Below, piece by piece: positions 16,785 to 63,100 of a stretch of DNA of 64,000 bases. The notes beneath the pieces are model-generated. The model was given only the letters and a program-made list of their open reading frames with translations, searched no databases and had not been told where the DNA came from. The stretch's first letter is position 1, and each line of letters opens with the position of its first letter. The position numbers and the translations under genes are program-made. The stretch is from Arenicola marina (lineage: Eukaryota; Annelida; Polychaeta; Arenicolidae), in assembly GCA_964019135.1 (NCBI GenBank), contig OZ025253.1, positions 11,909,059 through 11,973,058 of the forward strand, given 5' to 3'.

Positions 16785-16986
16785 CCCTAACGACCACACT
16801 TCATCCCAGCCAATGCCCCCAGCGACCACACCTCATCCCAGCCAAGCACCCCAGCGACCACACCTCATCCCAGCCAAGCCCCCCAGCGACCACGCCTCAT
16901 CCCAGCCAAGCCCCCCAGCGACCACACCTCATCCCAGCCAAGCCCCCAAGCGACCACACCTCATCCCAGCCAAGCCCCCCAGCGAC
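16785..16986. repeat. 32-bp minisatellite, left part
   Basis: Six units built on GACCACACCTCATCCCAGCC followed by AAGCCCCCCAGC. The array is continuous with 17950-19827 once the inserted element is removed. Confidence 0.95.
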
Positions 16987-25457: not shown

Positions 25458-25619
25458 ATGGCAGCATTTCACAGAAGAACTGGCTGTCTTGTGACGCTGT
25501 CAAACAATAACAGAACAGCAACCCGAGATCAGCCCTCGCAGGAATTCAACAATGGAGTCGTTATTTCGGTGGAACCGCTCAAAGACAATCAGTTATTCGA
25601 AGTCCAGATTGACAAAAAG
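25458..25619 (+). CDS. NEURL4: NEURL4 exon 1: start and first third of NHR1
   Basis: 54 codons in phase 0, beginning MAAFHRRTG and ending FEVQIDKK before donor GTACAT. It contains the NHR signature RTATR, EFNNGVV and FEV. The ATG at 25458 has a good context (AAAACATGG) and an in-frame TGA lies 30 bases upstream at 25428, so this is the likely initiator. The alternative is an upstream exon spliced in between 25431 and 25458, but I see no convincing acceptor. The domain begins almost at the initiator, with none of the glycine-rich leader I remember in human NEURL4. Confidence 0.85.
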
Positions 25620-28600: not shown

Positions 28601-31600
28601 CTTCATTTCTCTATCAAGACACAGTTTGGCTTTATCCTGTTGTTCTTCATAGATAAGTATGTTTGGGATCTGGACGAAGGATTTCCAGTATTTCAGTATA
28701 CTGCATTATGCTATGGTGAAGTATCTATTCCGGTGATACTTCATTTCTCTATCAAGGTATAGCTTTTTCCTGTTGTTCTTCGTACATGTGCCTGGCAGGT
28801 CAACATGAGGTCGATGCAGGTAAGTGTGCTGTAGCCATCTTTTGACTGATGTGTATCAATGAAATGAAATGCTCATGTTTTACGCCGGCTGTTATGGACG
28901 TGAAGGCTAAATTGAGCAGGCAGGCGTCCCAGGCCTCTGCCAGAGGACGTCATTGGACCAATGTGTTTCTGGCCGAGGTCATTGTTAGACCAATGTTTAT
29001 GTCTCACGCAGGTCATTGTTAGACCAATGTTTTGTCTCGCAGAAGACATCGTTAGACCAATGTTTATGTCTTGTGTCTCGCAAAGGTAATTGTTAGACCA
29101 ATGTGTGTTTCTTGTGTCTCGCAGAGGTCATTGTTAGACTAATGTTAATGTCTCGCAGAGGTCATTGTTAGACCAATGTTTATATCTCGCAAAGGTCATT
29201 GTTATACCAATGTTTATGTCTCGAAGAGGTCATTGTTAGACCAATGTTTATGTCTTGTGTCTCGCAGAGGTAATTGTTAGACCAATGAGTATTTCTTGAG
29301 TCTGGCAGAGATCATTGTTAGACCAATGTTAATGTCTCGCAGAGGTCATTGTTAGACCAATGTTAATGTCTCGCAGAGGTCATTGTTAGACCAATGTTTA
29401 TTTCTTGTGTCTCGCAGAGGTCATTCTTAGACCAATGTTTATGTCTTGTGTCTGACAGGTCATTGTTGGAGCCATGTTTATGTCTTGTGTCTGACAGGGG
29501 ACATCATTGGACCAATGGACGCCGTTGTAATGCTATCACCCTTTGACTAGTGTTTCTGTCATGTTTCCTGTAGGTCGGTGTCATGCGGACGTCCAGTGGT
29601 GAACTCCACTTCTATGTGAACGGTGTGGACCAGGGATCGGCGGCCGGCGCCATCCCGACCCCTGTGTACGCCGTGGTCGACATGTACGGCAAGTGTGCCC
29701 AGGTGACCGTCGTGGACGACCACAGCAGGGAACAAGGTTAGTGCAGCAGTGAACAGGGTTAGTGCAGCAGGGAAAGGGTTAGTTCAGCAGAAAACAAGGT
29801 TAGTCCAGCAGGGAACACGGTTAGTCCAACAAGGAACAAGGTTAGTCCAGCAGGGAACAAGGTTAGTGCAGCAGGGAACACGGTTAGTCCAGCCGGGAAC
29901 AGGGTTAATACACAGCAGGGAACATGGTTAGTCCAGCAGAGAAAAAGGTTAGTACAGCTGTGAACAAAGTAAATGCAGCAGGTAACAGGGTTAGTCTAGC
30001 AGGGAACAAGGTTAGTACAGCTGTGAACAAAGTAAATGCAGCAGGGAACAGGATCATTACATTACAGGGAACAGGCTCATTACATTACAGGGAGCAAGTT
30101 TATTACGGTAGGGAACAAGGTTATTACAGTAGGGAGCAAAATTAGTACAGCAGGGAACAAGGCTAGAACAGCAGAGAACGTGGTTATCCAGCAGGGACAA
30201 GGGGTTTATACGGCAGGGAAGGCGGTTAATACGTCAGGGAACAGGGTTAATACCAAGTGAACGCAAAACAGTGTCAGTGCACAGCAGAGTTAATACAGCA
30301 GGGAACAAGGTAAATGCAGTAGGGAACAAGGTTCGTACAGCAATGAACAAAGCAAATGCAGCTGGGAACACAGTCAGTGCAACAGGGAACAAGATATTAA
30401 TACATCAGAGAACAATGTTATACTACCAGGGAACAATGTAGACAAACAGGGAACAAAGTTTCCTTGCAGTATTACCTTTGTATCCCTCAATTATTACTTC
30501 CCTCTGTACGACCTCAGTATTGCAACTATCTGTATCTTTGCAGTGTTGTCCAACGAGATGCACAACGAGGCTCTGGTGGAGGCCTCGCTGGGCGCCGCGC
30601 TGTCCAACGACCTGCTCCTGTTCCACGAGCGCTGCGGCACGCTCATCAAGCTGAGCAACAGTCGCCGCACGGCAGAGCGACGCAAGCCGCTCGACGAGTT
30701 CAACAATGGCGTCGTCATGACAAACAGGCCTCTCCATGACGACGAGATGTTTGAGGTTGGTTGTCTGGGTGACGAGGTGTAACTGTTCTCTGGTGGTTCT
30801 GTGTATGTCACAGGGCAGTGAATCAGGTCCATCCTCCATGTAAGAACCCCCACGAAATGTATTATTGTAGTAAACGTTAGGCCTGAGTAATTACGTGAGC
30901 TAAGCTGAAACAATGGTTCACCCTAGCATGGAAGAACGACCGTTAATAAGGTACTGAAATGAATTGCAATTGAATTTAACATCAACTTTGCTGTAGTAAA
31001 TTGTAGTAAATTGTTACTCCGCGGTTAAATGAGTGCCTCATCACGTGTAAACATGTGTATTGCTCCGCGGTTAAACAGGGCCTCTTTACAGCGCTGTATA
31101 TTTCTTTGCAATTAAAACAGGGCCTCTTTATTACTTACTGCTCAAGCGATGCCTCTGCCGTTCAAGCAGTAACCGCTGACGCCGCTGCGTGTCTCTACCG
31201 TTCAAGCAGTATCCGCTGACGCCGTTGTGTGTCTCTGCCGTTCAAGCAGTACCCGCTGACGCCGCTGCGTGTCTCTGCCGTTCAAGCAGTACCCGCTGAC
31301 GCCGCTGCGTGTCTCTGCCGTTCAAGCAGTACCCGCTGACGCCGCTGCGTGTCTCTGCCGTTCAAGCAGTACCCGCTGACGCCGTTGTGTGTCTCTGCCG
31401 TTCAAGCAGTACCCGCTGACGCCGCTGCGTGTCTCTACCGTTCAAGCAGTATCCGCTGACGCCGCTGCGTGTCTCTGCCGTTCAAGCAGTACCCGCTGAC
31501 GCCGCTGTGTGTCTCTGCCGTTCAAGCAGTACCCGCTGACGCCGCTGCGTGTCTCAGCCGTTCAAGCAGTACCCGCTGACGCCGCTGCGTGTCTCTGCCG

Positions 31601-34600
31601 TTCAAGCAGTACCCGCTGACGCCGCTGTGTGTCTCTGCCGTTCAAGCAGTACCCGATGACGCCGCTGCGTGTCTCTGCCGTTCAAGCAGTACCCGCTGAC
31701 GCCGTTGTGTGTCTCTGCCGTTCAAGCAGTACCCGCTGACACCGCTGCGTGTCTCTACCGTTCAAGCAGTATCCGCTGACGCCGCTGCGTGTCTCTGCCG
31801 TTCAAGCAGTACCCGCTGACGCCGCTGCGTGTCTCTGCCGTTCAAGCAGTACCCGCTGACGCCGCTGCGTGTCTCTGCCGTTCAAAAAGTACCCGCTGAC
31901 GCCGCTGTGTGTCTCTGCCGTTCAAGCAGTACCCGCTGACGCCGCTGCGTGTCTCTGCCGTTCAAGCAGTACCCGCTGACGCCGTTGTGTGTCTCTGCCG
32001 TTCAAGCAGTACCCGCTGACGCCGCTGCGTGTCTCTACCGTTCAAGCAGTATCCGCTGACGCCGCTGCGTGTCTCAGCCGTTCAAGCAGTACCCGCTGAC
32101 GCCGCTGTGTGTCTCTGCCGTTCAAGCAGTACCCGCTGACGCCGCTGCGTGTCTCAGCCGTTCAAGCAGTACCCGCTGACGCCGCTGCGTGTCTCTGTCG
32201 TTCAAGCAGTACCCGCTGACGCCGCTGTGTGTCTCTGCCGTTCAAGCAGTACCCGATGACGCCGCTGCGTGTCTCTGCCGTTCAAGCAGTACCCGCTGAC
32301 GCCGTTGTGTGTCTCTGCCGTTCAAGCAGTACCCGCTGACACCGCTGCGTGTCTCTACCGTTCAAGCAGTATCCGCTGACGCCGCTGCGTGTCTCTGCCG
32401 TTCAAGCAGTACCCGCTGACGCCGTTGTGTGTCTCTGCCGTTCGAGCAGTACCCGCTGACGCCGCTGCGTGTCTCTGCCGTTCAAGCAGTACCCGCTGAC
32501 GCCGTTGTGTGTCTCTGCCGTTCGAGCAGTACCCGCTGACGCCGCTGCGTGTCTCTGCCGTTCAAGCAGTACCCGCTGACGCCGTTGTGTGTCTCTGCCG
32601 TTCGAGCAGTACCCGCTGACGCCGCTGCGTGTCTCTGCCGTTCAAGCAGTACCCGCTGACGCCGTTGTGTGTCTCTGCCGTTCGAGCAGTACCCGCTGAC
32701 GCCGTTGTGTGTCTCTGCCGTTCGAGCAGTACCCGCTGACGCCGCTGTGTGTCTCTGCCGTTCGAGCAGTACCCGCTGACGCCGCTGTGTGTCTCTGCCG
32801 TTCGAGCAGTACCCGCTGACGCCGTTGTGTGTCTCTGCCGTTCGAGCAATACCCGCTGACGCCGCTGTGTGTCTCTGCCGTTCGAGCAGTACCCGCTGAC
32901 GCCGTTATGTGTCTCTGCCGTTCGAGCAATACCCGCTGACGCCGCTGTGTGTCTCTGCTTGCAGATCCGCCTGGACCACCTAGTCGACAAGTGGTCGGGG
33001 TCGATCGAGGTGGGCATCACCACCCACGACCCCTCCGCCCTCGACTTCCCCGCCACCATGACGAACATGCGGTCAGGTAAGGCCCGGGACACTGAGACTT
33101 CATGTAAGTACAGACCCCTGAGAGGGTGGCTAGCTAGCCCCGCACCGGCTCGCCCCCCCCCCTCTCCCTGCACCGTGTATTACATGTGGCGTGTAGCCTG
33201 TACCAATATATACATAGCACGTGTTGGTTCGTCTTGTATATATTGTGTGTGTCACGTTGTTCCTCGTTCGGCTGTGGTTACTTTATCACCTTTCCGTTTA
33301 GGCGCCTGTGTGTCCACCCTTGGATAGGGGGATGGGGTGGTGGGGGGTGCAGTCTCCGATCCAGAATTCCCCGATATCCGGTGAACATCCCGCTTGTTTC
33401 TGTGAGGAAGGTGATGATATCGTCCAGGTCTTTGTCTCTTCCAAATGTGTTCTCATTCTCTAAAATTTATTAATAAAAATGTCTTATTGTTCTTTTTCCG
33501 CGAAACAGAATAGTGGGGACTCTTACGTTGGAGAAAGCGATAGCAATGATATTGACACCGGTGGGGACTTGAACCCACAACCCTTGCACAGTTACTTGCA
33601 CACATTATGGACTCGAACCCAAGACGACAATTGTTCGACTGCTGGCTGTCCCTACACAGACAATGGCACACATGTGCCATTCGACCCGCGGGGAGGGGAG
33701 GGGGGAACACAAAGCTGTACAGTAAGGGTGCTTCAGTTTAGACAGGCCACCAGCCAAGCCCGCTGCCACCCCTTGTCTTGTTGGTATTATTGTTTGAGTG
33801 TGACTTACTGTGTATTTGGCGTCATCATCGCAGTGTGGGTCACGTGATGCTAAGGACACGGTGTGTGTCGCGTGATATCATAAACGTCGCCTGGGTGACG
33901 TGATGTCATAAACGCTCTGTGCATCACGTGATACCCTAAACATCGTCTGCGTCATATGATGCGATGAAGTTTTTGGCGCGCGAATGTTTTCTTGATGATT
34001 TGTAACCACCAATTTGTGGTCAACGTATCATTCAATGCCTGTTCTGTTCTGAACTGCCTTTCATTTGGCATTTACCTAGTATCCGTTTCAACTGTTAAGC
34101 ACATGTGTGTTTGGTGTATGCAGGCTTTTTTTTAATGAGGACCTCATCTGTTCTCTATTTAATGTTTTTTTAAAGTTAATTTAGTTACACACCTACACGC
34201 TATTCTTGTCACACCACGTCACTTTATGTCACGGGTAATACCATGACATCATTCGTTACACATGTCATCAGATAAACTGTGATTTATCATTATGCACTAA
34301 TTTCAACTTCTTGGAGTTTAAATCCATAATGACGTTTACTGTTCGTTTTGTGTCACTTTCGTTTGTTTGGAATGTCTTTGTTTGTGCAATATGTTTCTTC
34401 TAATGAGTGTGTATTCATAATTAAGCTTACCTACTTTCAATGTAATGACAATATAGGCTTGTTTGTTTGTGACTATTCTAGATCCTTCATTCTTAAAAAC
34501 GATATTTTGTGCTCTATACTGTTGGAATAAAGAATCCAATTTTTTATGTATTAAATTAAAAGATAATGGTCCAATACTATTAAAACTACATGATATTGAG

Positions 34601-37600
34601 CTATAAACCATATAAATGACAAAACTAAATTTATTAGAATTTAAATTACAAGTTAATAATTCAATTGCATTAAATTATAATTTTAATTAAGCTTGCTAAA
34701 TTATTGTTAAATCAATTAGCTTTGGTGTAGTCATATAATCAGGGTGCAGAAGTCTTGTGTTTTAACGCCTTCTGATTACGTACATCAAGCCTTAGTAACC
34801 AAGGGTTAACTCATGGCGTTGATTACCACTGTGACATCCCACTTAGGGTCAGATCGCATTGACCTAATAAGGTCATTCAGTGTTGTCAGAATAAAGGGTG
34901 ACCTAATAAGGTCATTTAGTGTTGTCAGAATAAAGGGTGACCTAATAAGGTCATTTAGTGTTGTCAGAATAAAGGGTGACCTAATAAGGTCATTTAGTGT
35001 TGTCAGAATAAAGGGTGACCTAATAAGGTCATTCAGTGTTGTCAGAGTGAAGGGTGACCTAATAAGGTCATTCAGTGTTGTCAGAGTAAAGGGTGACCTA
35101 ATAAGGTCATTCAGGGTGAAGGGTGGGGCACGGAGACTTCAGTTTGTTAAGGTCAAGGTCATGTCTTATCTCAGTCTGTAGTTCCAAGAACAAAGAAGAA
35201 TGTTGAGCCTTACTTCTCAGCTGCAAGTTGTAGTTGTTTATTTCTTTGTATATTTATTCGATAGTCCTGTGACAGCTGTTGTAATTCGTAGCCTGGACGA
35301 TCCTGATGCTGTTTTTTTCTGATTATGTTTCTGGTTCCATAACGGCTCTCTCATTGGATGCACAGTGAATCGATATCTAATCTCTGCCTTGATTCTGAGT
35401 CTATGGTTTGCTATTTCCCCTTCTGAGTCTGACCACCACGAACCACCCTTCCTTGAGCGGGTTTTAGCGATCACCCCTCTGTTTCTCGATACTGTATAGC
35501 GCATACTAGTCCCACCCTTGACTCAGATTAGAGAAATTCTCGATGCCAAGCCTTGTATTAAAGCTGTTGTGTGAGGATGTTGTTATTGGCATGAGTTGAC
35601 CCCATAGTGCTCTCTCAGGTACCATAATGATGAGTGGCTGCGGTATCCTCACGAACGGGAAGGGTACGCGCAGGGAATACGGAGACTTCAACCTCGACGA
35701 ACTGCGGGTAAGGCTTACTCTTGGCTGCCTCCTTAAAGAGGGCATCCATTGCTTGCCTTCTTAAAGAGTACATCCATTGCTGCCTCCTTAAAAAGGGCAT
35801 CCATTGCTTGCCTTCTTAAAGAGTACATCCATTGCTGCCTCCTTAAAGAGGTCATCCATTGCTGCCCCCTTAAAGAGGGCATCCATTACTGCCTCTTTAA
35901 AGAGGGCATCCATTGCTGCCTCCTTAAAGAGGGCATCCATTGCTGCCTCCTTAAAGAGGGCATCCATAGCTGCCTCCTTAAAGACGGCACCCATTGCTAC
36001 CTCCTTAAAGAGGGCATCCATTGCTACCTCCTTAAAGAGGGCATCCATTGCTGCATCCTTAAAGAGGGCATCCATTGCTGCCCCCTTAAAGAGGGCATCC
36101 ATAGCTGCCTCCTTAAAGAGGGCATCCATTGCTGCATCCTTAAAGAGGGCATCCATTGCTGCCCCCTTAAAGAGGGCATCCATAGCTGCCTCCTTAAAGA
36201 GGGCATCCATTGCTGCCTCCTTAAAGAGGGCATCCATTGCTACCTCCTTAAAGAGGGCATCCATTGCTACCTCCTTAAAGAGGGCATCCATTACTGCCTC
36301 TTTAAAGAGGGCATCCATTGCTGCCTCCTTAAAGAGGGCATCCATTGCTGCCTCCTTAAAGAGGGCATCCATAGCTGCCTCCTTAAAGACGGCACCCATT
36401 GCTACCTCCTTAAAGAGGGCATCCATTGCTACCTCCTTAAAGAGGGCATCCATTGCTGCATCCTTAAAGAGGGCATCCATTGCTGCCCCCTTAAAGAGGG
36501 CATCCATAGCTGCCTCCTTAAAGAGGGCATCCATTGCTACCTCCTTAAAGAGGGCATCCATTGCTACCTCCTTAAAGAGGGCATCCATTGCTACCTTCTT
36601 AAAGAGGGCATCCATTGCTGCATCCTTAAAGAGGGCATCCATTGCTGCCCCCTTAAAGAGGGCATCCATAGCTGCCCCCTTAAAGAGGGCACCCATTGCT
36701 GCCTCCTTAAAGAGGGCATCCATTGCTGCCTCCTTAAAGAGGGCATCCATTGCTGCCTCCTTAAAGAAGGCATCCATTGCTGCCTCCTTAAAGAGGGCAT
36801 CCATTGCTGCCCCCTTAAAGAGGGCATCCATTGCTGCCTCCTTAAAGAGGGCATCCATAGCTGCCTCCTTAAAGAGGGCATCCATTGCTGCCTCCTTAAA
36901 GAAGGCATCCATTGCTGCCTCCTTAAAGAGGGCATCCATTGCTGCCTCCTTAGAGAGGGCATCCATAGCTGCCTCCTTAAAGAGGGCATCCATTGCTGCC
37001 TCTTTAAAGAGGGCATCCATTGCTGCCTCCTTAGAGAGGGCATCCATAGCTGCCTCCTTAAAGAAGGCATCCATTGCTGCCTCCTTAAAGAGGGCATCCA
37101 TTGCTGCCTCCTTAGAGAGGGCATCCATTGCTGCCTCCTTAAAGAGGGCATCCATTGCTGCCTCCTTAGAGAGGGCATCCATAGCTGCCTCCTTAAAGAG
37201 GGCATCCATTGCTGCCTCCTTAAAGAGGGCATCCATTGCTGCCTCCTTAAAGAGGGCATCCATTGCTTGCCTTCTTAAAGAGGGCATCCATTGCTACCTT
37301 CTTAAAGAGGGCATCCATTGCTACCTCCTTAAAGAGGGCATCCATTACTGCCTCCTTAAAGAGGGCATCCATTGCTGCCTCCTTAGAGAGGGCATCCATA
37401 GCTGCATCCTTAAAGAGGGCATCCATTGCTGCCCCCTTAAAGAGGGCATCCATAGCTGCCTCCTTAAAGAGGGCACTCATTGCTACCTCCTTAAAGAGGG
37501 CATCCATAGCTGCCTCCTTAAAGAGGGCACTCATTGCTACCTCCTTAAAGAGGGCATCCATTGCTGCCTCCTTAAAGAGGGCATCCATTGCTGCCTCCTT

Positions 37601-40600
37601 AAAGAGTGCATCCATTGCTGCATCCTTAAAGAGGGCATCCATTGCTGCCGCCTTAAAGAGGGCATCCATTACGGCCTCCTTAAAGAGGGCATCCATTGCT
37701 GCCTCCTTAAAGAGGGCATCCATTGCTGCCTCCTTAAAGAGGGCATCCATTGCTGCCTCCTTAAAGAGTGCATCCATTGCTGCATCCTTAAAGAGGGCAT
37801 CCATTGCTGCCGCCTTAAAGAGGGCATCCATTACGGCCTCCTTAAAGAGGGCATCCATTGCTGCCTCCTTAAAGAGGGCATCCATTGCTGCCTCCTTAAA
37901 GAGGGCATCCATTGCTTCCTCCTTAAAGAGGGCATCCATAGCTGCCTCCTTAAAGAGGGCATCCATAGCTGCCTCCTTAAAGAGGGCATCCATTGCTACC
38001 TTCTTAAAGAGGGCATCCATTGCGGATTGTTTAATTATACTCATTGCTGGGCGGTTAAATGGTGTACTTATTGCTAATCGGGAAGGATTGTAATCATTGT
38101 TTATTGGTTAAGCATTATACTAATTGCTGATCTGCTTAAAAGTTATTCATAGCTCGTTGGTAAAATAATGTACTAATTTCTGATTGATTAAAGTATAAAC
38201 CCATTGCTGATTGGTTCAGAATTGGGCTTATTGGTTACTCTGACAGATATCCCAGTTGTTGCGAAACCTTACGGCAGTGCAGTTTAAAGACTGCTCATTT
38301 CTGACTGGTTAATATGTAAACTCATTGCTGACTGGTTAAAATGTAAACTCATTGCTAATTGGTTCAAAATGTTACTTATTAGTTAAATAACTGTCTGGAA
38401 AATTAACAACTTTTCCCCAGGCACATATTCTCATCGTTTGTAACTATTAATGTAAAAGAATACTTGTGTAATGTGTCGGTTGCGATGTCTGCCGCTAGGA
38501 GGGAGGCCGTATCGGGCTGATGCGGCTGTCCAGCGGGGCTCTCCATTACTACATCAACGGCCTGGACCAGGGGGTGGCGGCCGCGCGCGCCCCTCAGGTC
38601 GTCTGGGGCGTCGTGGACCTCTACGGCATGGCGGTCAAGGTCACTATCATCGACTCAAACGCGCCGCTCCCCGTGCCGGCGCTGCCCGTCACAGCGCCCC
38701 CTATGGTGGAGAGCTGCACCACGATCAGCACTCGCGCCAACACCTTCATCCAGTCGCTAAGGGATACCGTGGAACACGAGGGTGCGTCCTGTGTCTGCTG
38801 TACGCGCGGATAAATATCCATGCGTCTATATATATCTTTTATAATATATATACATCATCAATATTTTGCAGCTTTGTATGATTGACAATATACTCCTGAG
38901 TGACTATCTGGCCCTGATTGAGAATGTACTCCTGAGTGACTATCTAGCCTTGATTGACAATATACTCCTGAGTGACTATCTAGCCCTGATTGGCACTGTA
39001 CTCCTGAGTGACTATCTAGCCCTGATTGACAATGTACTCCTGAGTGATATCTAGCCTTGATTGACAATATACTCCTGAGTGACTATCTAGCCTTGATTGA
39101 CAATATACTCCTGAGTGACTATCTAGCCCTGATTGACAATGTACTCCTGAGTGACTATCTAGCCCTGATTGACAATATACTCCTGAGTGACTATCTAACC
39201 CTGATTGACAATATACTCCTGAGTGACTATCTAGCCCTGATTGACAATGTACTTCTGAGTGACTATCTAGCCCTGATTGACAATGTACTTCTGAGTGACT
39301 ATCTAGCCCTGATTGACAATGTACTTCTGAGTGACTATCTAGCCCTGATTGACAATGTACTCCTGAGTGACTATCTGGCCCTGATTGACAATGTACTTCT
39401 GAGTGACTATCTAGCCCTGATTGACAATGTACTCCTGAGTGACTATCTAGCCCTGATTGACAATGTACTCCTGAGTGACTATCTGGCCCTGATTGACAAT
39501 GTGCTCCTGAGTGACTATCTGGCCCTGATTGACAATGTACTTCTGAGTGACTATCTAGCCCTGATTGACAATATACTCCTGAGTGACTATCTGGCCCTGA
39601 TTCACAATGTACTCCTGAGTGACTATCTGGCCCTGATTCACAATGTACTTCTGAGTGACTATCTAGCCCTGATTGACAATATACTCTTGAGTGACTATCT
39701 GGCCCTGATTGGCAATGTACTCCTGAGTGACTCTCTAGGCCTGATTGACAATGTACTCCTGAGTGATTCTCTAGCCCTGATTGACAATGTACTCCTGAGT
39801 GACTCTCTAGCCCTTATTCAGTGTACTCCTGAGTGACTATCTGGCCCTGATTGGCAATGTACTCCTGAGTGACTCTCTAGCCCTGATTGACAATGTACTC
39901 CTGAGTGACTCTCTAGCCCTTATTCACAGTGTACTCCTGAGTGACTATCTGGCCCTGATTGGCAATGTACTCCTGAGTGACTCTCTAGCCCTGATTGACA
40001 ATGTACTCCTGAGTGACTCTCTAGCCCTGATTGACAATGTACTCCTGAGTGACTCTCTAGCCCTTATTCACAGTGTACTCCTGAGTGACTATCTGGCCCT
40101 GATTGGCAATGTACTCCTGAGTGACTCTCTAGCCCTTATTCACAGTGTACTCCTGAGTGACTATATGGCCCTGATTGACAATGTACTCCTGAGTGTTCAT
40201 CCAGTTTCTCTATAGACCGTTTAGGAATGGAGTGGCGTCAGCCGTATGCCGCTGTATGCCTCTGTATGACAATGTATGCCGCTGTATGACAATGTATGAC
40301 AATGTCTGTCTCCTTGCAGAGAACTCCCCAGTCGCGGAGGTGGAGAGCCTGGTGTTCCACCCTCACTGCGGCTGTCACGCGGCGGTCATTAACGGCAGGA
40401 GGACCGCCCACCGACCCAAGTGAGTCCCCCCTCCCACCCCTCACCGCCCATCCCTCACTCCTCACCGCCCACCCCTCACCGCCCACCGACCCAAGTGAGT
40501 CCCCCCTCCCATCCCTCACCGCCCATCCCTCACTCCTCACCGCCCACCGACCCAAGTGAGTCTCCCCTCCCACCCCTCACCGCCCATCCCTCACCCCTCA

Positions 40601-48115: not shown

Positions 48116-48155
<40 letters not shown>

Positions 48156-51100: not shown

Positions 51101-54100
51101 GTAGGGTCAGTGTATAGCCGGCAGGGTCAGTGACTGTATCTGTGTAGGGTCAGTGTATAGCCGGCATGGTCAGTGACTGTATCTGTGTAGGGTCAGTGTA
51201 TAGCCGGCAGGGTCAGTGACTGTATCTGTGTAGGGTCAGTGTATAGCCGGCAGGGTCAGTGACTGTAACTGTGTAGGGTCAGTGTATAGCCTGCAGGGTC
51301 AGTGACTGTATCTGTGTAGGGTCAGTGTATAGCCGGCAGGGTCAATGACTGTATCTGTGTAGGGTCAGTGTATAGCCGGCAGGGTCAATGACTGTATCTG
51401 TCTAGGGTCAGTGTATAGCCGGCAGGGTCAGTGACTGTATCTGTGTAGGGTCAGTGTATAGCCGGCAGGGTCAATGACTGTATCTGTGTAGGGTCAGTGT
51501 ATAGCCGGCAGGGTCAATGACTGTATCTGTGTAGGGTCAGTGTATAGCCGGCAGGGTCAGTGACTGTATCTGTGTAGGGTCAGTGTATAGCCGGCAGGGT
51601 CAGTGACTGTATCTGTGTAGGGTCAGTGTATAGCCGGCAGGGTCAGTGACTGTATCTGTGTAGGGTCAGTGTATAGCCGGCAGGGTCAGTGACTGTATCT
51701 GTGTAGGGTCAGTGTATAGCCGGCAGGGTCAATGACTCTATCTGTGTAGGGTCAGTGTATAGCCGGCAGGGTTAGTGACTGTATCTGTGTAGGGTCAGTG
51801 TATAGCCTGCAGGGTCAGTGACTGTATCTGTGTAGGGTCAGTGTATAGCCGGCAGGGTCAGTGACTGTATCTGTGTAGGGTGAGTGTATAGCCGGCAGGG
51901 TCAGTGACTGTATCTGTGTAGGGTCAGTGTATAGCCGGCAGGGTCAGTGACTGTATCTGTGTAGGGTCAGTGTATAGCCGGCAGGGTCAATGACTGTATC
52001 TGTGTAGGGTCAGTGTATAGCCGGCAGGGTCAGTGACTGTATCTGTGTAGGGTCAGTGTATAGCCTGCAGGGTGAGTGACTGTATCTGTGTAGGGTCAGT
52101 GTATAGCCGGCAGGGTCAGTGACTGTATCTGTGTAGGGTCAGTGTATAGCCGGCAGGGTCAGTGACTGTATCTGTGTAGGGTCAGTGTATAGCCGGCAGG
52201 GTCAGTGACTGTATCTGTGTAGGGTCAGTGTATAGCCGGCAGGGTCAGTGACTGTATCTGTGTAGGGTCAGTGTATAGCCGGCAGGGTCAGTGACTGTAT
52301 CTGTGTAGGGTCAGTGTATAGCCGGCAGGGTCAGTGACTGTATCTGTGTAGGGTCAGTGTATAGCCGGCAGGGTCAGTGACTGTATCTGTGTAGGGTCAG
52401 TGTATAGCCGGCAGGGTGAGTGACTGTATCTGTGTAGGGTCAGTGTATAGCCGGCAGGGTCAGTGACTGTATCTGTGTAGGGTCAGTGTATAGCCGGCAG
52501 GGTCAGTGACTGTATCTGTGTAGGGTCAGTGTATAGCAGGCAGGGTCAGTGACTGTATCTGTGTAGGGTCAGTGTATAGCCGGCAAGGTCAGTGACAGTA
52601 TCTGTGTAGGGTCAGTGTATAGCCGGCAGGGTCAGTGACTGTATCTGTGTAGGGTCAGTGTATAGCCGGCAGGGTCAGTGACTGTATCTGTGTAGGGTCA
52701 GTGTATAGCCGGCAGGGTCAGTGACTGTATCTGTGTAGGGTCAGTGTATAGCCGGCAGGGTCAGTGACTGTATCTGTGTAGAGTCAGTGTATAGCCGGCA
52801 GGGTCAGTGACTGTATCTGTGTAGGGTCAGTGTATAGCCGGCAGGGTCAGTGACTGTATCTGTGTAGGGTCAGTGTATAGCCGGCAGGGTCAGTGACTGT
52901 ATCTGTGTAGAGTCAGTGTATAGCCGGCAGGGTCAGTGACTGTATCTGTGTAGGGTCAGTGTATAGCCGGCAGGGTCAGTGACTGTATCTGTGTAGGGTC
53001 AGTGTATAGCCGGCAGGGTCAGTGACTGTATCTGTGTAGGGTCAGTGTATAGCCGGCAGGGTGAGTGACTGTATCTGTGTAGAGTCAGTGTATAGCCGGC
53101 AGGGTCAGTGACTGTATCTGTGTAGGGTCAGTGTATAGCCGGCAGGGTCAGTGACTGTATCTGTGTAGGGTCAGTGTATAGCCGGCAGGGTGAGTGACTG
53201 TATCTGTGTAGAGTCAGTGTATAGCCGGCAGGGTCAGTGACTGTATCTGTGTAGGGTCAGTGTATAGCCGGCAGGGTCAGTGACTGTATCTGTGTAGGGT
53301 CAGTGTATAGCCGGCAGGGTCAGTGACTGTATCTGTGTAGGGTCAGTGTATAGTCGGCAGGGTCAGTGACAGTATATGTGTAGGGTGAGTGACTGTATCT
53401 GTGTAGGGTCAGTGTATAGTCGGCAGGGTCGGTGTCTGTATCTGTGTAGGGTCAGTGTATAGCCGGCAGGGTCAGTGACTGTATCGGTGTAGGGTCAGTG
53501 TATAGCCGGCAGGGTCAGTGACAGTATCTGTGTAGGGTGAGTGACTGTATCTGTGTAGGGTCAGTGTATAGCCGGCAGGGTCAGTGACTGTATCTGTGTA
53601 GGATCAGTGTATAGCCGGCAGGGTCAGTGACTGTATCTGTGTAGGGTCAGTGTATAGCCGGCAGGGTCAGTGACTGTATCTGTGTAGGGTCAGTGTATAG
53701 CCGGCAGGGTCAGTGACTGTATCTGTGTAGGGTCAGTGTATAGCCGGCAGGGTCAGTGACTGTATCTGTGTAGGGTCAGTGTATAGCCGGCAGGGTCAGT
53801 GACTGTATCTGTGTAGGGTCAGTGTATAGCCGGCAGGGTCAGTGACTGTATTTGTGTAGGGTCAGTGTATAGCCGGCAGGGTCAGTGACTGTATCTGTGT
53901 AGGGTCAGTGTATAGCCGGCAGGGTCAGTGACTGTATCTGTGTAGGGTCAGTGTATAGCCGGCAGGGTCAATAACTGTATCTGTGTAGGGTCAGTGTATA
54001 GCCGGCAGGGTCAGTGACTGTATCTGTGTAGGGTCAGTGTATAGCCGGCAGGGTCAGTGACTGTATCTGTGTAGGGTCAGTGTATAGTCGGCAGGGTCAG

Positions 54101-57100
54101 TGACAGTATATGTGTAGGGTGAGTGACTGTATCTGTGTAGGGTCAGTGTATAGCCGGCAGGGTCAGTGACTGTATCGGTGTAGGGTCAGTGTATAGCCGG
54201 CAGGGTCAATGACTGTATCGGTGTAGGGTCAGTGTATAGCCGGCAGGGTCAGTGACAGTATCTGTGTAGGGTGAGTGACTGTATCTGTGTAGGGTCAGTG
54301 TATAGCCGGCAGGGTCAATGACTGTATCTGTGTAGGGTGAGTGTATAGCCGGCAGGGTCAGTGACTGTATCTGTGTAGGGTCAGTGTATAGCCGGCAGGG
54401 TTAGTGACTGTATCTGTGTAGGGTCAGTGTATAGCCGGCAGGGTCAATGACTGTATCTGTGTAGGGTCAGTGTATAGCCGGCAGGGTCAGTGACTGTATC
54501 TGTGTAGGGTCAGTGTATAGCCGGCAGGGTCAATGACTGTATCTGTGTAGGGTCAGTGTATAGCTGGCAGGGTCAGTGACTGTATCTGTGTAGGGTCAGT
54601 GTATAGCCGGCAGGGTCAGTGACTGTATCTGTGTAGGGTCAGTGTATAGCCGGCAGGGTCAATGACTGTATCTGTGTAGGGTCAGTGTATAGCCGGCAGG
54701 GTCAGTGACTGTATCTGTGTAGGGTCAGTGTATAGCCGGCAGGGTCAGTGTCTGTATCTGTGTAGGGTCAGTGTATAGCCGGCAGGGTCAGTGACTGTAT
54801 CTGTGTAGGGTCAGTGTATAGCCGGCAGGGTCAATGACTGTATCGGTGTAGGGTCAGTGTATAGCCGGCAGGGTCAGTGACAGTATCTGTGTAGGGTGAG
54901 TGACTGTATCTGTGTAGGGTCAGTGTATAGCCGGCAGGGTCAATGACTGTATCTGTGTAGGGTCAGTGTATAGCCGGCAGGGTCAGTGACTGTATCTGTG
55001 TAGGGTCAGTGTATAGCCGGCATGGTCAGTGACTGTATCTGTGTAGGGTCAGTGTATAGCCGGCAGGGTCAGTGACTGTATCTGTGTAGGGTCAGTGTAT
55101 AGCCGGCAGGGTCAGTGACTGTATCTGTGTAGGGTCAGTGTATAGCCTGCAGGGTGAGTGACTGTATCTGTGTAGGGTCAGTGTATAGCCGGCAGGGTCA
55201 GTGACTGTATCTGTGTAGGGTCAGTGTATAGCCGGCAGGGTCAATGACTGTATCTGTGTAGGGTCAGTGTATAGCCGGCAGGGTCAATGACTGTATCTGT
55301 CTAGGGTCAGTGTATAGCCGGCAGGGTCAGTGACTGTATCTGTGTAGGGTCAGTGTATAGCCGGCAGGGTCAATGACTGTATCTGTGTAGGGTCAGTGTA
55401 TAGCCGGCAGGGTCAATGACTGTATCTGTGTAGGGTCAGTGTATAGCCGGCAGGGTCAGTGACTGTATCTGTGTAGGGTCAGTGTATAGCCGGCAGGGTC
55501 AGTGACTGTATCTGTGTAGGGTCAGTGTATAGCCGGCAGGGTCAGTGACTGTATCTGTGTAGGGTCAGTGTATAGCCGGCAGGGTCAGTGACTGTATCTG
55601 TGTAGGGTCAGTGTATAGCCGGCAGGGTCAGTGACTGTATCTGTGTAGGGTCAGTGTATAGCCGGCAGGGTCAGTGACTGTATCTGTGTAGGGTCAGTGT
55701 ATAGCCGGCAGGGTCAGTGACTGTATCTGTGTAGGATCAGTATATAGCCGGCAGGGTCAGTGACTGTATCTGTGTAGGGTCAGTGTATAGCCGGCAGGGT
55801 CAGTGACTGTATCTGTGTAGGGTCAGTGTATAGCCGGCAGGGTCAGTGACTGTATCTGTGTAGGGTCAGTGTATAGCCGGCAGGGTCAGTGACTGTATCT
55901 GTGTAGGGTCAGTGTATAGCCGGCAGGGTGAGTGACTGTATCTGTGTAGGGTCAGTGTATAGCCGGCAGGGTCAGTGACTGTATCTGTGTAGGGTGAGTG
56001 TATAGCCGGCAGGGTCAGTGACTGTATCTGTGTAGGGTCAGTGTATAGCAGGCAGGGTCAGTGACTGTATCTGTGTAGGGTCAGTGTATAGCCGGCAGGG
56101 TCAGTGACAGTATCTGTGTAGGGTCAGTGTATAGCCGGCAGGGTGAGTGACTGTATCTGTGTAGAGTCAGTGTATAGCCGGCAGGGTCAGTGACTGTATC
56201 TGTGTAGGGTCAGTGTATAGCCGGCAGGGTCAGTGACTGTATCTGTGTAGGGTCAGTGTATAGCCGGCAGGGTCAGTGACTGTATCTGTGTAGGGTCAGT
56301 GTATAGTCGGCAGGGTCAGTGACAGTATATGTGTAGGGTGAGTGACTGTATCTGTGTAGGGTCAGTGTATAGTCGGCAGGGTCAGTGTCTGTATCTGTGT
56401 AGGGTCAGTGTATAGCCGGCAGGGTCAGTGACTGTATCGGTGTAGGGTCAGTGTATAGCCGGCAGGGTCAGTGACAGTATCTGTGTAGGGTGAGTGACTG
56501 TATCTGTGTAGGGTCAGTGTATAGCCGGCAGGGTCAGTGACTGTATCTGTGTAGGATCAGTGTATAGCCGGCAGGGTCAGTGACTGTATCTGAGTAGGGT
56601 CAGTGTATAGCCGGCAGGGTCAGTGACTGTATCTGTGTAGGGTCAGTGTATAGCCGGCAGGGTCAGTGACTGCATCTGTGTAGGGTCAGTGTATAGCCGG
56701 CAGGGTCAGTGACTGTATCTGTGTAGGGTCAGTGTATAGCCGGCAGGGTCAGTGACTGTATCTGTGTAAGGTCAGTGTATAGCCGGCAGGGTCAGTGACT
56801 GTATTTGTGTAGGGTCAGTGTATAGCCGGCAGGGTCAGTGACTGTATCTGTGTAGGGTCAGTGTATAGCCGGCAGGGTCAGTGACTGTATCTGTGTAGGG
56901 TCAGTGTATAGCCGGCAGGGTCAATGACTGTATCTGTGTAGGGTCAGTGTATAGCCGGCAGGGTCAGTGACTGTATCTGTGTAGGGTCAGTGTATAGCTG
57001 GCAGGGTCAGTGACTGTATCTGTGTAGGGTCAGTGTATAGTCGGCAGGGTCAGTGACAGTATATGTGTAGGGTGAGTGACTGTATCTGTGTAGGGTCAGT

Positions 57101-60100
57101 GTATAGTCGGCAGGGTCAGTGTCTGTATCTATGTAGGGTCAGTGTATAGCCGGCAGGGTCAGTGACTGTATCGGTGTAGGGTCAGTGTATAGCCGGCAGG
57201 GTCAATGACTGTATCGGTGTAGGGTCAGTGTATAGCCGGCAGGGTCAGTGACAGTATCTGTGTAGGGTGAGTGACTGTATCTGTGTAGGGTCAGTGTATA
57301 GCCGGCAGGGTCAATGACTGTATCTGTGTAGGGTCAGTGTATAGCCGGCAGGGTCAGTGACTGTATCTGTGTAGGGTCAGTGTATAGCCGGCAGGGTTAG
57401 TGACTGTATCTGTGTAGGGTCAGTGTATAGCCGGCAGGGTCAATGACTGTATCTGTGTAGGGTCAGTGTATAGCCGGCAGGGTCAGTGACTGTATCTGTG
57501 TAGGGTCAGTGTATAGCCGGCAGGGTCAATGACTGTATCTGTGTAGGGTCAGTGTATAGCTGGCAGGGTCAGTGACTGTATCTGTGTAGGGTCAGTGTAT
57601 AGCCGGCAGGGTCAGTGACTGTATCTGTGTAGGGTCAGTGTATAGCCGGCAGGGTCAATGACTGTATCTGTGTAGGGTCAGTGTATAGCCGGCAGGGTCA
57701 GTGACTGTATCTGTGTAGGGTCAGTGTATAGCCGGCAGGGTCAGTGTCTGTATCTGTGTAGGGTCAGTGTATAGCCGGCAGGGTCAGTGACTGTATCTGT
57801 GTAGGGTCAGTGTATAGCCGGCAGGGTCAATGACTGTATCGGTGTAGGGTCAGTGTATAGCCGGCAGGGTCAGTGACAGTATCTGTGTAGGGTGAGTGAC
57901 TGTATCTGTGTAGGGTCAGTGTATAGCCGGCAGGGTCAATGACTGTATCTGTGTAGGGTCAGTGTATAGCCGGCAGGGTCAGTGACTGTATCTGTGTAGG
58001 GTCAGTGTATAGCCGGCAGGGTTAGTGACTGTATCTGTGTAGGGTCAGTGTATAGCCGGCAGGGTCAATGACTGTATCTGTGTAGGGTCAGTGTATAGCC
58101 GGCAGGGTAGGGTCAGTGTATAGCCGGCAGGGTCAGTGACTGTATCTGTGTAGGGTCAGTGTATAGCCGGCAGGGTCAGTGACTGTATCTGTGTAGGGTC
58201 AGTGTATAGCCGGCAGGGTCAGTGACTGTATCTGTGTAGGGTGAGTGTATAGCCGGCAGGGTCAATGACTGTATCTGTGTAGGGTCAGTGTATAGCCGGC
58301 AGGGTCAGTGACTGTATCTGTGTAGGGTCAGTGTATAGCCGGCAGGGTCAGTGACTGTATCTGTGTAGGGTCAGTGTATAGCCGGCAGGGTCAGTGACTG
58401 TATCTGTGTAGGGTCAGTGTATAGCCGGCAGGGTCAGTGACTGTATCTGTGTAGGGTCAGTGTATAGCCGGCAGGGTTAGTGACTGTATCTGTGTAGGGT
58501 GAGTGTATAGCCGGCATGGTCAGTGACTGTATCTGTGTAGGGGCAGTGTATAGCCGGCAGGGTCAGTGACTGTATCTGTGTAGGGTAAGTGTATAGCCGG
58601 CAGGGTCAGTGACTGTATCTGTGTAGGGTCAGTGTATAGCCGGCAGGGTCAGTGTCTGTATCTGTGTAGGGTGAGTGTATAGCCGGCAGGGTCAGTGACT
58701 GTATCTGTGTGGGGTCAGTGTATAGCCGGCAGGGTCAATGACTGTATCTGTGTAGGGTCAGTGTATAGCCGGCAGGGTCAGTGACTGTATCTGTGTAAGG
58801 TCAGTGTATAGCCGGCAGGGTCAGTGACTGTATCTGTGTAGGGTCAGTGTATAGCCGGCAGGGTCAATGACTGTATCTGTGTAGGGTCAGTGTATAGCCG
58901 GCAGGGTCAGTGACTGTATCTGTGTAGGGTCAGTGTATAGCCGACAGGGTCAGTGACTGTATCTGTGTAGGGTCAGTGTATAGCCGGCAGGGTCAGTGAC
59001 TGTATCTGTGTAGGGTCAGTGTATAGCCGACAGGGTCAGTGACTGTATCTGTGTAGGGTCAGTGTATAGCCGGCAGGGTCAGTGACTGTATCTGTGTAGG
59101 GTCAGTGTATAGCCGGCAGGGTCAGTGACTGTATCTGTGTAGGGTCAGTGTATAGCCGGCAGGGTCAGTGACTGTATCTGTGTAGGGTCAGTGTATAGCC
59201 GACAGGGTCAGTGACTGTATCTGTGTAGGGTCAGTGTATAGCCGGCAGGGTCAGTGACTGTATCTGTGTAGGGTCAGTGTATAGCCGGCAGGGTCAGTGA
59301 CTGTATCTGTGTAGGGTCAGTGTATAGCCGGCAGGGTCAGTGACTGTATCTGTGTAGGGTCAGTGTATAGCCGGCAGGGTCAGTGACTGTATCTGTGTAG
59401 GGTCAGTGTATAGCCGGCAGGGTCAGTGACTGTATCTGTGTAGGGTCAGTGTATAGCCGGCAGGGTCAGTGACTGTATCTGTGTAGGGTCAGTGTATAGC
59501 CGGCAGGGTCAGTGACTGTATCTGTGTAGGGTCAGTGTATAGCCGGCAGGGTCAGTGACTGTATCTGTGTAGGGTCAGTGTATAGCCGGCAGGGTCAGTG
59601 TCTGTATCTGTGTAGGGTGAGTGTATAGCCGGCAGGGTCAGTGACTGTATCTGTGTGGGGTCAGTGTATAGCCGGCAGGGTCAATGACTGTATCTGTGTA
59701 GGGTCAGTGTATAGCCGGCAGGGTCAGTGACTGTATCTGTGTAAGGTCAGTGTATAGCCGGCAGGGTCAGTGACTGTATCTGTGTAGGGTCAGTGTATAG
59801 CCGGCAGGGTCAATGACTGTATCTGTGTAGGGTCAGTGTATAGCCGGCAGGGTCAGTGACTGTATCTGTGTAGGGTCAGTGTATAGCCGACAGGGTCAGT
59901 GACTGTATCTGTGTAGGGTGAGTGTATAGCCGGCAGGGTCAGTGACTGTATCTGTGTAGGGTCAGTGTATAGCCGGCAGGGTCAGTGACTGTATCTGTGT
60001 AGGGTCAGTGTATAGCCGGCAGGGTCAATGACTGTATTTGTGTAGGGTCAGTGTATAGCCGGCAGGGTCAATGACTGTATCTGTGTAGGGTCAGTGTATA

Positions 60101-63100
60101 GCCGGCAGGGTCAGTGACTGTATCTGTGTAGGGTCAGTGTATAGCCGGCAGGGTCAGTGACTATCTGTGTAGGGTCAGTGTATAGCCGGCAGGGTTAGTG
60201 ACTATATCTGTGTAGGGTCAGTGTATAGCCGGCAGGGTCAATGACAATTTTAATCTTCATGTGTACCGAAGTGGGCAAAAAATACCCAACATTTCCTTTC
60301 TAGGCTTAATTTTAACCTCCATTTGCGGAAAAATGGCCAAAAAGTTCAATATTTCTTTTTCATTTCACTTTGTTTCCTGACTCCCTGCCAGACCCGAGCT
60401 GCCTGCCGCACGTGGAGATCTGCGTGGAGGGTGCTGCAGACGAGCTGCGCTTCCACGCGATGCACGGCCGTAACGCCCTGATCACCCACGGGGGGCGGGC
60501 CGCCACGCGACCCCGGGCCCGCGAGGAGTTCAACGACGCCATCGTCATCAGCAACCGGCCGCTCAGGAACAACGAACTGTTCGAGGTCGTCATCGAGAAG
60601 ATGGTCGACCGCTGGTCCGGGTCCATAGAGGCTGGTCAGTGCCTGGGGGCTGGAGGGGTGGTGGGGGGTAGAGTGGAGAGGGGAGGGGGGGGTGGCGGGG
60701 GCCAGGGGCTGTGCTAGACCGCCAGCCGGCCGCTCAGGGACAACGAGCTGTTTGAGGTCGTCATCGAGAAGAGGGTCGACCGCTGGTCCGGGTCCATAGA
60801 GGCTGGTCAGTGCCTGGGGGCTGGAGGGGTGGTGGGGGGTAGGGTGGAGGATGGGGGGGGTGGTGGAGAGGGGGCGGTGGTAATAGATATGGTAATAGGT
60901 GTGGTCGGCGATGGCGGAGTGGGCGGTAGTAGAGAGGGAGACTGTCCGATGGGGAGAGGTGCGATGGATGCAAAATAAATATTAAGTGAAAGAAACCCTT
61001 GGATATATCTTTGGAGGCTTTACTAAGAAGAATCTTTACCTCGACTAAATAAAATTCGTAACCTAAATCTTACGAGTACACAATTACAATGATCGGTGAT
61101 TGTATTGGGAGTAGGAGAACCATATTGACCGATGCAACCGAAGCCCAGATTAACTCCAACAGAAGTTGTCATGGTTACCGCGATGCAGGTGTGACGTCGA
61201 TTCTGCCCCAGGATCTGGAGTTTCCCAACACCATGACGGACATTGACTACGACACGTGGATGTTGAGGTGAGCGGCAGATCCTCCAGGCTACCTAGGTAC
61301 TGTCTCTATGTGTAACATTGGCTTTGTTATTAACACGATGGACTCAGTTTCAGTCTAGTTAACACTGCAGATACTGTCCTTTACAGTCGAACGAGTGCAT
61401 CGAAGATGAAATACATTCTGTCAAATCCTGTCCTTTGCTCGAAGATATTCGAGTTATTATGTGTTGTCCCCGAAAATGGATGGCCACTTTTCGTTTTACA
61501 AATTTCATAATGACTAAAGATAACGATGTTCATAAGTGACATTTGCATTTGTTTTTCATGCGTATCACTTTGTGTAACTCACACTAAACGATTTCATTTC
61601 GCAATTGAGTATACAGTACAGTGCTGCCCTCTACTGGCCGAACCATTAGTTACTCCTGTGTGGAGGGCGGACTTTTGGCCGCATGTGTGATTCCTTCACC
61701 AGATGGCGCCACTGCTCACATCTCACCAGATGGCGCCACTGCTCACATCTCACCTCTCACCAAACACTCAACCTTTACCGGCGTCCGTAACCCTGATGTC
61801 TACATACGTCTTCCCTCTACCCCACCCCACCCCACCCCGCCGACCCACCCTTCCTCCCACCCTCGCCCTTCCTATGCAGCGGGTCGGCCATCATGCAGGA
61901 TGGCGCCGCCATCCGGAACGGCTACTCCCTGGATCTGGACTCGCTCTGCGTCAACTCCAGGATCGGCATGATGCGCTGCTCGGACGGGACGCTGCACTAC
62001 TTCCTGGACGGTGTGGATCAGGGCGTGGCCTGCACCGACCTGGCGCCAGGTCAGTCAGTCGTCGTCATGGGCAACAGCCGTTACCATAGCTACCTATTGT
62101 TGTACGTCATAGAAGGACTAACTTACCAGCGGTTTTGTTCTCAGTCGGTGGTCTTCGTTGTTGTTCAAGGGTTTCATTTAATGGGTCGGATGACGTAGTC
62201 GTATATTATGCGTCATTGTTGATTGAATGTTGAGCGTACGCAGTGATTGACCTGTACTGAATGTTACAGATGTCTACGCAGTGATTGACCTGTACTGAAT
62301 TTTACAGATGTCTATGCAGTGATTGACCTGTACTGAAGGTTACAGATGTTTACGCAGTAATTGACCTGTACTGAATGTTGCAGATGTGTACCCAGTGATT
62401 GACCTGTACTGAATGTTACAGATGTCTACAGTGATTGACCTGTACTGAATGTTACAGATGTGTACAGTGATTGACCTGTATTGAATGTTACAGATGTGTA
62501 CGCAGTAGTTGATTGTACTGAATGTTGCAGATGTGTACGCAGTGATTGACCTGTACTGAATGTTGCAGATGTGTACGCAGTAGTTGACCTGTACTGAATG
62601 TTGCAGATGTGTACGCAGTGATTGACCTGTATTGAATATTACAGATGTATACAGGGATTGACCTGTACTAAATGTTGCAGATGTGTACGCAGTAATTGAC
62701 CTGTACTGAATGTTACAGATGTGTACGCAGTGATTGACCTGTACTGAATGTTACAGATGTGTACACAGTGATTGACCTGTACTGAATGTTACAGATGTGT
62801 AGGCAGTGAAAGACCTGTACTGAATGTTACAGATGTGTAGGCAGTGAAAGACCTGTACTGAATGTTACAGATGTATACAGGGATTGACCTGTACTGAATG
62901 TTGCAGATGTGTACGCAGTGATTGACCTGTACGGCCAGTGCGCTCAGGTATCCATTACCAGCTGCTCCGGGGTGAGACCTCACGAGAACATCGCCGTGCC
63001 CGCCGAGATCGAGGCCTCCATCAGCTCTCCGTTCAGCGCCGGTATGTGTCTCTTCTCCCCCACCAGATGGCGCCACAAACCGTGTATTCCCCTTTCCAAC

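Follow-up and report, generated by a model that had tools for sequence, protein, structure and literature searches.

Minisatellites containing their own splice junctions in six introns of a predicted NEURL4 orthologue of Arenicola marina

Six of the 28 splice junctions of a single gene of the annelid Arenicola marina, located in six of its 14 introns, were found to be repeated in register within their own intron, each copy containing exon as well as intron bases. The copied junctions are the donors of introns 3, 8, 9, 10 and 11 and the acceptor of intron 13. In our judgement these arrays rather likely go back to random tandem duplication that is tolerated at splice junctions, and not to a dedicated mechanism. 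The analysis was performed on a stretch of 64,000 nucleotides (assembly GCA_964019135.1, contig OZ025253.1, positions 11,909,059 to 11,973,058), hereafter the window, in whose numbering all coordinates are given.

The gene was rebuilt as 15 exons separated by 14 GT-AG introns, and the use of the exon-proximal splice sites yields a single open frame of 837 codons. The exons are as follows (a slash marks the border).

25458..25619, + strand, exon 1 as modelled; open frame, donor AAG/GTACAT; the Neuralized domain begins at residue 4
27730..27921, + strand, exon 2; AG/GT borders, frame maintained
29574..29736, + strand, exon 3 of the gene model
30544..30755, + strand, exon 4 of the gene model
32965..33076, + strand, exon 5 of the gene model
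35619..35707, + strand, exon 6 of the gene model
38499..38781, + strand, exon 7 of the gene model
40320..40419, + strand, exon 8 of the gene model
42834..43101, + strand, exon 9 of the gene model
50810..50972, + strand, exon 10 of the gene model
60392..60634, + strand, exon 11 of the gene model
61189..61267, + strand, exon 12 of the gene model
61880..62049, + strand, exon 13 of the gene model
62907..63041, + strand, exon 14 of the gene model
63504..63643, + strand, exon 15; terminates in a donor, the gene continuing past the modelled part

The Pfam family PF07177 (Neuralized) was matched in five stretches of the modelled protein (E 7.9e-194). The best solved relative of the first Neuralized domain is 2e63 (KIAA1787; E 5.7e-67), the match to 'Protein neuralized' having an E of 2e-5. 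The protein therefore combines the two properties used to recognize NEURL4, namely several Neuralized (NHR) domains and the closest similarity to KIAA1787, which we take to be NEURL4, and on the basis of its predicted product the gene is an animal NEURL4 orthologue. A second gene was sought as a control, and no Pfam family was matched in 20 open frames, 18 of which lie upstream and were hand-picked from 59 of at least 70 codons; searches with Rfam (gathering scores) and a tRNA scan also gave no matches.

Repeats are abundant in this gene. Only introns 1 and 14 lack TRF rows with a score of at least 100, the other 12 introns all having them, and arrays occupy 62% of the intron sequence. The TRF rows were merged by hand into a set of 16 arrays, from which a poly-A run (48114) and two two-copy rows of intron 9 (45194, 45474) were left out; the end of the intron 11 pair was placed at 60896 or 60860, depending on the analysis. 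The six junction-spanning arrays, together with that of intron 4, are listed below.

29722..30460, + strand, donor-spanning array of intron 3; 21-base unit of 15 exon and 6 intron bases
31153..32958, + strand, array of intron 4; 40-base unit, 45 copies, stopping 6 bases ahead of the acceptor
40403..42769, + strand, donor-spanning array of intron 8; unit of 41-165 bases, 2.4 kb
43079..43443, + strand, donor-spanning array of intron 9; spacing of 50-87 bases, ~24 exon bases
50966..60245, + strand, donor-spanning array of intron 10; 9.3 kb, unit of 43 bases comprising two donor-like halves
60555..60866, + strand, two-copy tandem duplication of intron 11; 171-base period
62236..62932, + strand, acceptor-spanning array of intron 13; 38-base unit of 12 intron and 26 exon bases

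In order to identify the copied junctions, each junction was represented by a 24-mer (12 exon and 12 intron bases), and ungapped copies matching in at least 18 of the 24 positions were counted in its own intron. The donors of introns 3, 8, 9, 10 and 11 gave 18, 32, 5, 7 and 1 copies, respectively, and the acceptor of intron 13 gave 17, while the remaining 22 of the 28 junctions gave no copies in their own intron at this cut-off, with best matches of 10-16 of 24. When all 28 junctions were aligned with gaps to the 16 array stretches, the same six emerged; the own-junction score was 33.6-48.0 in five arrays and 17.6 in intron 10, the weakest case of the six. Junctions from other introns reached at best 8.3-15.6 on these six arrays, which supports the earlier view that the units are unrelated between introns.

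Both tests thus recover the donor arrays of introns 3, 8, 9 and 10, the single duplicate of exon end plus donor in intron 11 and the acceptor array of intron 13, all of which had been indicated in the preliminary description. Its count of at least seven affected introns is reduced to six, as intron 4 does not clearly contain a junction. The intron 4 array does come close to the acceptor, but the supposed merger with it is limited to a weak alignment that needs gaps (own score 16.0, others at most 10.5), and this own score is inflated because 18 array bases fall within the segment compared in that alignment.

The six arrays differ in size and in the share of exon sequence. That of intron 3 comprises 33 copies at 60% identity (34.9 by TRF), and that of intron 9 six copies, counting the real donor. 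In intron 8, 17 exon bases are common to the next copy, and the 13-base core of exon end plus donor occurs in 32 exact copies, the real one first, and in one copy with 2 mismatches, no others being found within 3. The intron 10 array begins at the real donor, shares ~5-8 exon bases and contains 208 copies at 70% identity. The intron 11 duplication shares 80 exon and ~61 intron bases, including the intron 11 donor. For intron 13, TRF gave 18.6 copies, and a 38-base probe at 70% identity gave 15. Near the acceptor of this intron, the only branch-like motif found lies in the next unit, in the part that derives from the exon.

Arrays of this kind are a known phenomenon. 'Mirage' minisatellites have been published for the amphioxus genes Adh3, the globins BflGb6 and BflGb9, TnC and PGBD5 (PMC3087553, PMC3902484), the Adh case being that of Canestro and colleagues (2002), as cited in PMC3087553; the amphioxus precedent named in the preliminary description is thus in print. 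According to the available text of these two papers, the amphioxus units measure 10 to ~160 bases and, as in the gene analyzed here, contain the splice site with exon bases on one side and intron bases on the other (here at six of 28 junctions), and both donor and acceptor borders are affected (here five donors and one acceptor). The same text reports that the mirages do not disturb splicing, the mRNA being normal; in NEURL4, a single open frame is obtained with the exon-proximal sites. Length instability between haplotypes or cells is a further amphioxus trait, and our gene is represented by a single sequence. NEURL4 differs in that a single gene carries six junction-spanning arrays, of which those of introns 8 and 10 extend over 2.4 and 9.3 kb. 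BflGb6 has one array, BflGb9 a single duplicate and PGBD5 two repeats, so that six per gene is extreme among the cases compared, as far as these are described in the available text. Intronic minisatellites of C. elegans are the subject of PMC4039745. No genome-wide survey of mirages was among the literature matches listed, a search whose coverage mostly excludes subscription papers.

Minisatellite-size repeats at exon-intron borders have additionally been described in human segmental-duplication paralogues, where, in the available part of the source, they alter exon structure or help to form new introns (PMC2812944). In contrast, the exon structure of NEURL4 appears, to judge from the sequence, to be unchanged.

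The reading that we favor can be outlined as follows. Short tandem duplications (~20-170 bases) would arise roughly at random along the DNA, and those within exons would be purged by selection, whereas those within introns would be tolerated. The same tolerance would extend to duplications crossing a junction, since the right mRNA is still produced from the splice-site copy nearest the exon, all extra copies being intronic. A junction-spanning duplication could then expand by slippage or unequal crossing-over; selection would fix the exon-adjacent copy alone, and the other copies would drift, giving rise to a 'mirage' whose decoy sites are presumably spliced out as a rule. The abundance of minisatellites outside the gene (nine arrays scoring at least 100 in the 20.7 kb of unique sequence upstream) is in line with such an origin. 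This arrangement of five donor arrays and one acceptor array, each with between one and about four hundred decoy sites, allows the choice of the spliceosome among near-identical neighbours to be examined in a natural setting, and it illustrates that introns can lengthen through the growth of repeats from their own borders.

Drift of the extra copies is best seen in intron 3, where the likeness to the junction drops with distance from the exon (Spearman -0.47, P 0.007, 32 decoys). The decoys match 13-20 of the 21 unit positions, and GT is kept in register in 23 of the 32, at least one of the losses (29764) being a one-base shift. It could be supposed, instead, that the decoys are kept by selection for a function, for example to buffer splicing, to hold U1 or to slow splicing, but we regard this as quite improbable. 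The nine splice columns of intron 3 average ~75%, compared with 80% across all 21 (calculated by hand), and the splice-signal columns of introns 10 and 13 are likewise no better kept than the rest of the unit. Moreover, judged by duplex energy, 388 of the 413 AGGGT sites examined in intron 10 fall short of the real donor and the other 25 equal it. The idea is favored by intron 8, in which the core is near-invariant and has changed less than the linker (2 of 429 sites in 33 copies, vs 14 of 441 in seven 76-base units; P 0.004), with the reservation that the copies were located by means of this core, so that strongly degraded ones would escape. It is also favored by intron 9, in which AAG/GTAAGG is kept in all five decoys and the splice columns are invariant over the six copies (mean 95%). 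Recent copying, however, accounts for introns 8, 9 and 11.

Use of the decoys would be expected to change the protein. In-frame read-through meets a stop after 1, 1, 15, 10 and 27 codons in introns 3, 8, 9, 10 and 11, respectively. As judged from the coordinates, the stop precedes the first decoy in introns 3, 8, 9 and 11, and decoy use there would therefore truncate the protein; in intron 10, splicing at the first decoy, which lies 24 bases downstream, would lengthen the frame by 8 codons, and only later decoys meet the stop.

The preliminary description had proposed a mechanism that copies whatever sits at exon-intron borders. In a scheme of this kind, R-loops or spliceosome-held RNA would cause DNA breakage or disturb replication at splice sites, and duplications would be seeded preferentially at the borders, mainly at donors. 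We consider it unlikely, and the counts do not demonstrate it. With random starts in the present unique intron sequence, 3.1-3.8 spanning arrays are expected, and six of the 16 arrays were observed to span a junction, or seven with intron 4 (P 0.05-0.12 for six); with one array per intron at the present unique length, six of 12 are spanning (P 0.03-0.07). When the unique introns were set to at least 300 bases, P was 0.01-0.03, and with at least 500 bases the expectation fell to 1.7-2.1 (P 0.003-0.007). Omission of four weak arrays (the second arrays of introns 6 and 7 and those of introns 11 and 12) left five of 12 spanning (P 0.05-0.11), a 24-base seed for intron 10 gave P 0.04, and counting intron 4 as spanning lowered each P, e.g. 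to 0.01-0.04 for all 16 arrays at the present unique length. The spanning count exceeds the expectation under every null tried, which speaks against purely random duplication. The excess is nevertheless clear only if the introns formerly had several hundred unique bases each, and the P values flatter it, since the window was chosen for this pattern.

Only 64-328 unique bases are left in five of the six spanning introns, so that random starts would often straddle the junction; the median is 166 bases in spanning introns and 437 in the others (by hand; Mann-Whitney P 0.08). Within the unit, the junction falls at positions consistent with a uniform distribution (KS P 0.62, n 6). Two other calculations were abandoned: an earlier null (18, then 16 arrays) with 4.6 expected and P 0.25-0.27 (0.22 with the 14 strongest) overstated the expectation because too few start positions were taken, and a count of edges within 20 bases of a junction (6 observed against 6.6 expected) overlooks any array reaching more than 20 bases into the exon.

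The location of five of the six spanning arrays at donors fits targeting better than purely random placement; however, a bias of just 5 to 1 is also predicted by tolerance, because the spliceosome may pick a copied acceptor before it reaches the real one further downstream. As to R-loops, a positive coding-strand GC skew is present in five of the six spanning arrays, but it does not separate them from the others (six of 10; Fisher P 0.59), the skew of the intron 8 array is strongly reversed (-0.74), and donor sequences are G-rich in themselves. We are equally doubtful that splice junctions are true hot spots of minisatellite birth in this lineage, with the constant exon-anchored copy re-seeding the array as a lasting template; if they were, introns would lengthen outwards from the junctions, and exon copies could even supply them with splice signals, as with the branch-like motif near the intron 13 acceptor. 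Should a junction bias hold genome-wide, splicing or transcription would shape the birthplaces of repeats.

Two further observations do not favor the tolerated random duplication that we prefer. Arrays are denser in the introns (16 in 13.7 kb) than upstream (nine in 20.7 kb, counted at a score of at least 100; P 0.02), a contrast that also holds without the retroelement stretch (P 0.0006), and the intron 8 core and the intron 9 splice columns are well kept.

The units also recall intron gain by tandem genomic duplication, a documented process in which, according to the accessible part of the source, exon sequence is duplicated together with splice-like sequence (PMC3443670). That the introns were themselves born by tandem duplication of AGGT-carrying exon sequence, as in intron gain of the Rogers type, is nonetheless highly improbable. 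This model needs both intron ends in the copies of one unit, and only one end matches in all six introns; the opposite junctions score 10-16 of 24, like other junctions. Furthermore, introns 6 and 9 lie at the same place and in the same phase in neighbouring Neuralized repeats (LDELR/EGGR and LDRLK/AGDR, compared by eye), and intron 9 therefore probably predates its own array.

Multiplication of the junctions by assembly or sequencing error is very unlikely as well. Long arrays of high identity, such as that of intron 10 (9.3 kb, columns ~98% alike), are hard to assemble, and copy numbers may therefore be wrong, but the copies carry substitutions, as in the imperfect decoys of intron 3 and in intron 11, whose copies differ within the exon part; the units of intron 8 vary in length, and the exons are intact.

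In the gapped comparison, marginal scores were also obtained by a 25-base array of intron 9 with its own donor (10.1, others at most 9.7) and by the second array of intron 2 with its own acceptor (10.4, others at most 9.4), and we do not claim these as junction remnants. Two arrays lie near a junction and do not contain it, in intron 6 (16 bases past the donor) and in intron 7 (14 bases ahead of the acceptor).

The gene that carries the arrays was modelled in the rightmost 38 kb of the window with 15 exons and 14 introns, all of the latter being GT-AG, and the joined exons form a single open frame of 837 codons with no stop. The gene extends beyond exon 15, and exon 1 is given as modelled. The Neuralized domain was found in five stretches of the predicted protein (Pfam, E 7.9e-194); the closest solved structure to the first of these was KIAA1787 (2e63; E 5.7e-67), whereas the "Protein neuralized" structure matched it at only 2e-5. 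KIAA1787 is human NEURL4, and the gene is named NEURL4 here. When inspected by eye, introns 6 and 9 (35708 and 43102) occupy the same site, in the same phase, in successive Neuralized repeats, and both may therefore predate the domain duplication.

Tandem arrays cover 22.1 of the 35.7 kb of NEURL4 intron (the array count, 18, was obtained by merging TRF rows by hand). The sequence across each of the 28 exon-intron junctions was sought again within its own intron, and matches of 18/24 or better were taken as copies. Six junctions recur in this way, five of them donors (introns 3, 8, 9, 10 and 11) and one an acceptor (intron 13); the remaining 22 have no copy at 18/24 in their own introns. The junction-copying arrays noted in the preliminary description are thus confirmed for these six introns. 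For a seventh, in which the intron 4 array was said to merge into the acceptor, the observation holds in part: homology to the acceptor is present, but only with gaps, and the array stops 6 bases short of it. The weakest of the six is intron 10 (best copy 18/24); in a gapped comparison, its junction scored 17.6 against its own array and the junctions of other introns at most 11.4, and the array is directly continuous with the real donor.

Repeat units of the six junction-spanning arrays of NEURL4.
Intron 3, donor: 21 bases, 15 exon + 6 intron
Intron 8, donor: 41-165 bases, with a fixed core of 17 exon bases and the donor
Intron 9, donor: 50-87 bases, about 24 exon bases
Intron 10, donor: 43 bases, two donor-like halves, about 5-8 exon bases
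Intron 11, donor: 171 bases, two copies, 80 exon bases
Intron 13, acceptor: 38 bases, 12 intron + 26 exon

The real donor is the first copy in every donor array, and the real acceptor is the last copy in the intron 13 array. Intron 9 also contains a second array (43571-44794; 25-base unit, 49 copies, GC skew 0.83), which is marginally similar to the intron 9 donor.

Boundary-spanning tandem repeats were named "mirages" in amphioxus Adh3 and are also known from globins (PMC3087553, where further loci are cited), PGBD5 and TnC (PMC3902484). Both sources report splicing to be unaltered, and somatic instability is described for the Adh3 mirage. NEURL4 shows the sequence-level features of mirages six times, and judged by these features its arrays are a new, extreme case of an already known phenomenon.

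Because the arrays occupy most of the intron, random positions along the intron as it now stands are the wrong null for a junction bias. In the null used, each array was collapsed to one unit, whose start was placed anywhere in the remaining unique intron; all the resulting P values refer to a gene chosen for its repeat pattern. At the present unique length, 3.8 of 16 arrays would be expected to overlap a junction, compared with six observed (P 0.12), and 3.1 of 16 when the overlap had to include 5 or more bases of exon and 4 or more of intron (P 0.05). Assuming that each intron had 300 or more unique bases gave 2.3-2.7 expected (P 0.01-0.03), and assuming 500 gave 1.7-2.1 (P 0.003-0.007). Allowing one array per intron at the present length gave P 0.03-0.07; when the intron 4 array was included as the seventh spanning one, P was 0.01-0.04. 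These values suggest, without establishing it, that spanning arrays may be 1.6 to 3.5 times as frequent as expected.

Random tandem duplication, tolerated when it falls across junctions, would account for the position of the arrays, unit sequences that are unrelated from intron to intron, junction positions spread uniformly along the unit, the drift of the distal intron 3 copies, and the lack of extra conservation of decoys (extra splice-site copies inside an array) in introns 3, 10 and 13. Several findings run counter to it: arrays are denser in the introns (16 in 13.7 kb) than upstream (9 in 20.7 kb; P 0.02, falling to 0.0006 when the retroelement stretch is excluded), spanning arrays are steadily above the expected number, the splice columns of intron 9 are invariant (6 copies), and the intron 8 core is conserved (P 0.004), the last being weakened as evidence because the core served as the search handle. 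The alternative put forward earlier, that R-loops seed the arrays at junctions, is consistent with the positive GC skew of the coding strand in five of the six spanning arrays; however, the skew is also positive in six of the ten non-spanning arrays, and so does not set the spanning ones apart, and it is -0.74 in intron 8.

Reading through the intron reaches a stop after 1, 1, 15, 10 and 27 codons in introns 3, 8, 9, 10 and 11, respectively, and by coordinates this stop precedes the first decoy in introns 3, 8, 9 and 11. The first decoy of intron 10 (50973-50997), 24 bases downstream of the real donor, would add 8 in-frame codons with no stop and is a possible alternative donor; the later decoys of this intron meet a stop. 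Judged by the energy of its duplex with U1, the real donor was weaker than a decoy in one case only, among the 32 decoys of intron 3. Decoys were weaker than the real donor in 26/32 cases in intron 3 and at 388/413 AGGGT sites in intron 10, and equal to it in introns 8 (30/31, these decoys having been found by the exact core), 9 (5/5) and 11 (1/1).

The pyrimidine tract of the intron 13 acceptor (62868-62906) is among the two poorest of the 14 (0.52), and the sole yTNAy motif within 57 bases sits 19 bases upstream, where the preceding unit consists of exon-derived sequence. Since yTNAy is absent at 5 of the 14 acceptors, this branch-like motif in an exon-derived repeat is a lead rather than a result.

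Among the other repeats, introns 1 and 9 share two inverted-repeat matches (25729-25812 and 50431-50559; 58 and 31 bases long, at 86% and 97%, respectively), probably one short mobile element present twice in opposite orientation. Intron 9 also contains a 418-codon open frame (46773-48026) in which a zinc-binding reverse-transcriptase domain is recognized (PF13966, E 3e-7); this frame is probably a non-LTR retroelement remnant. Upstream of the gene, two arrays about 1 kb apart (16783-16988 and 17950-19824) have a common 32-base unit.
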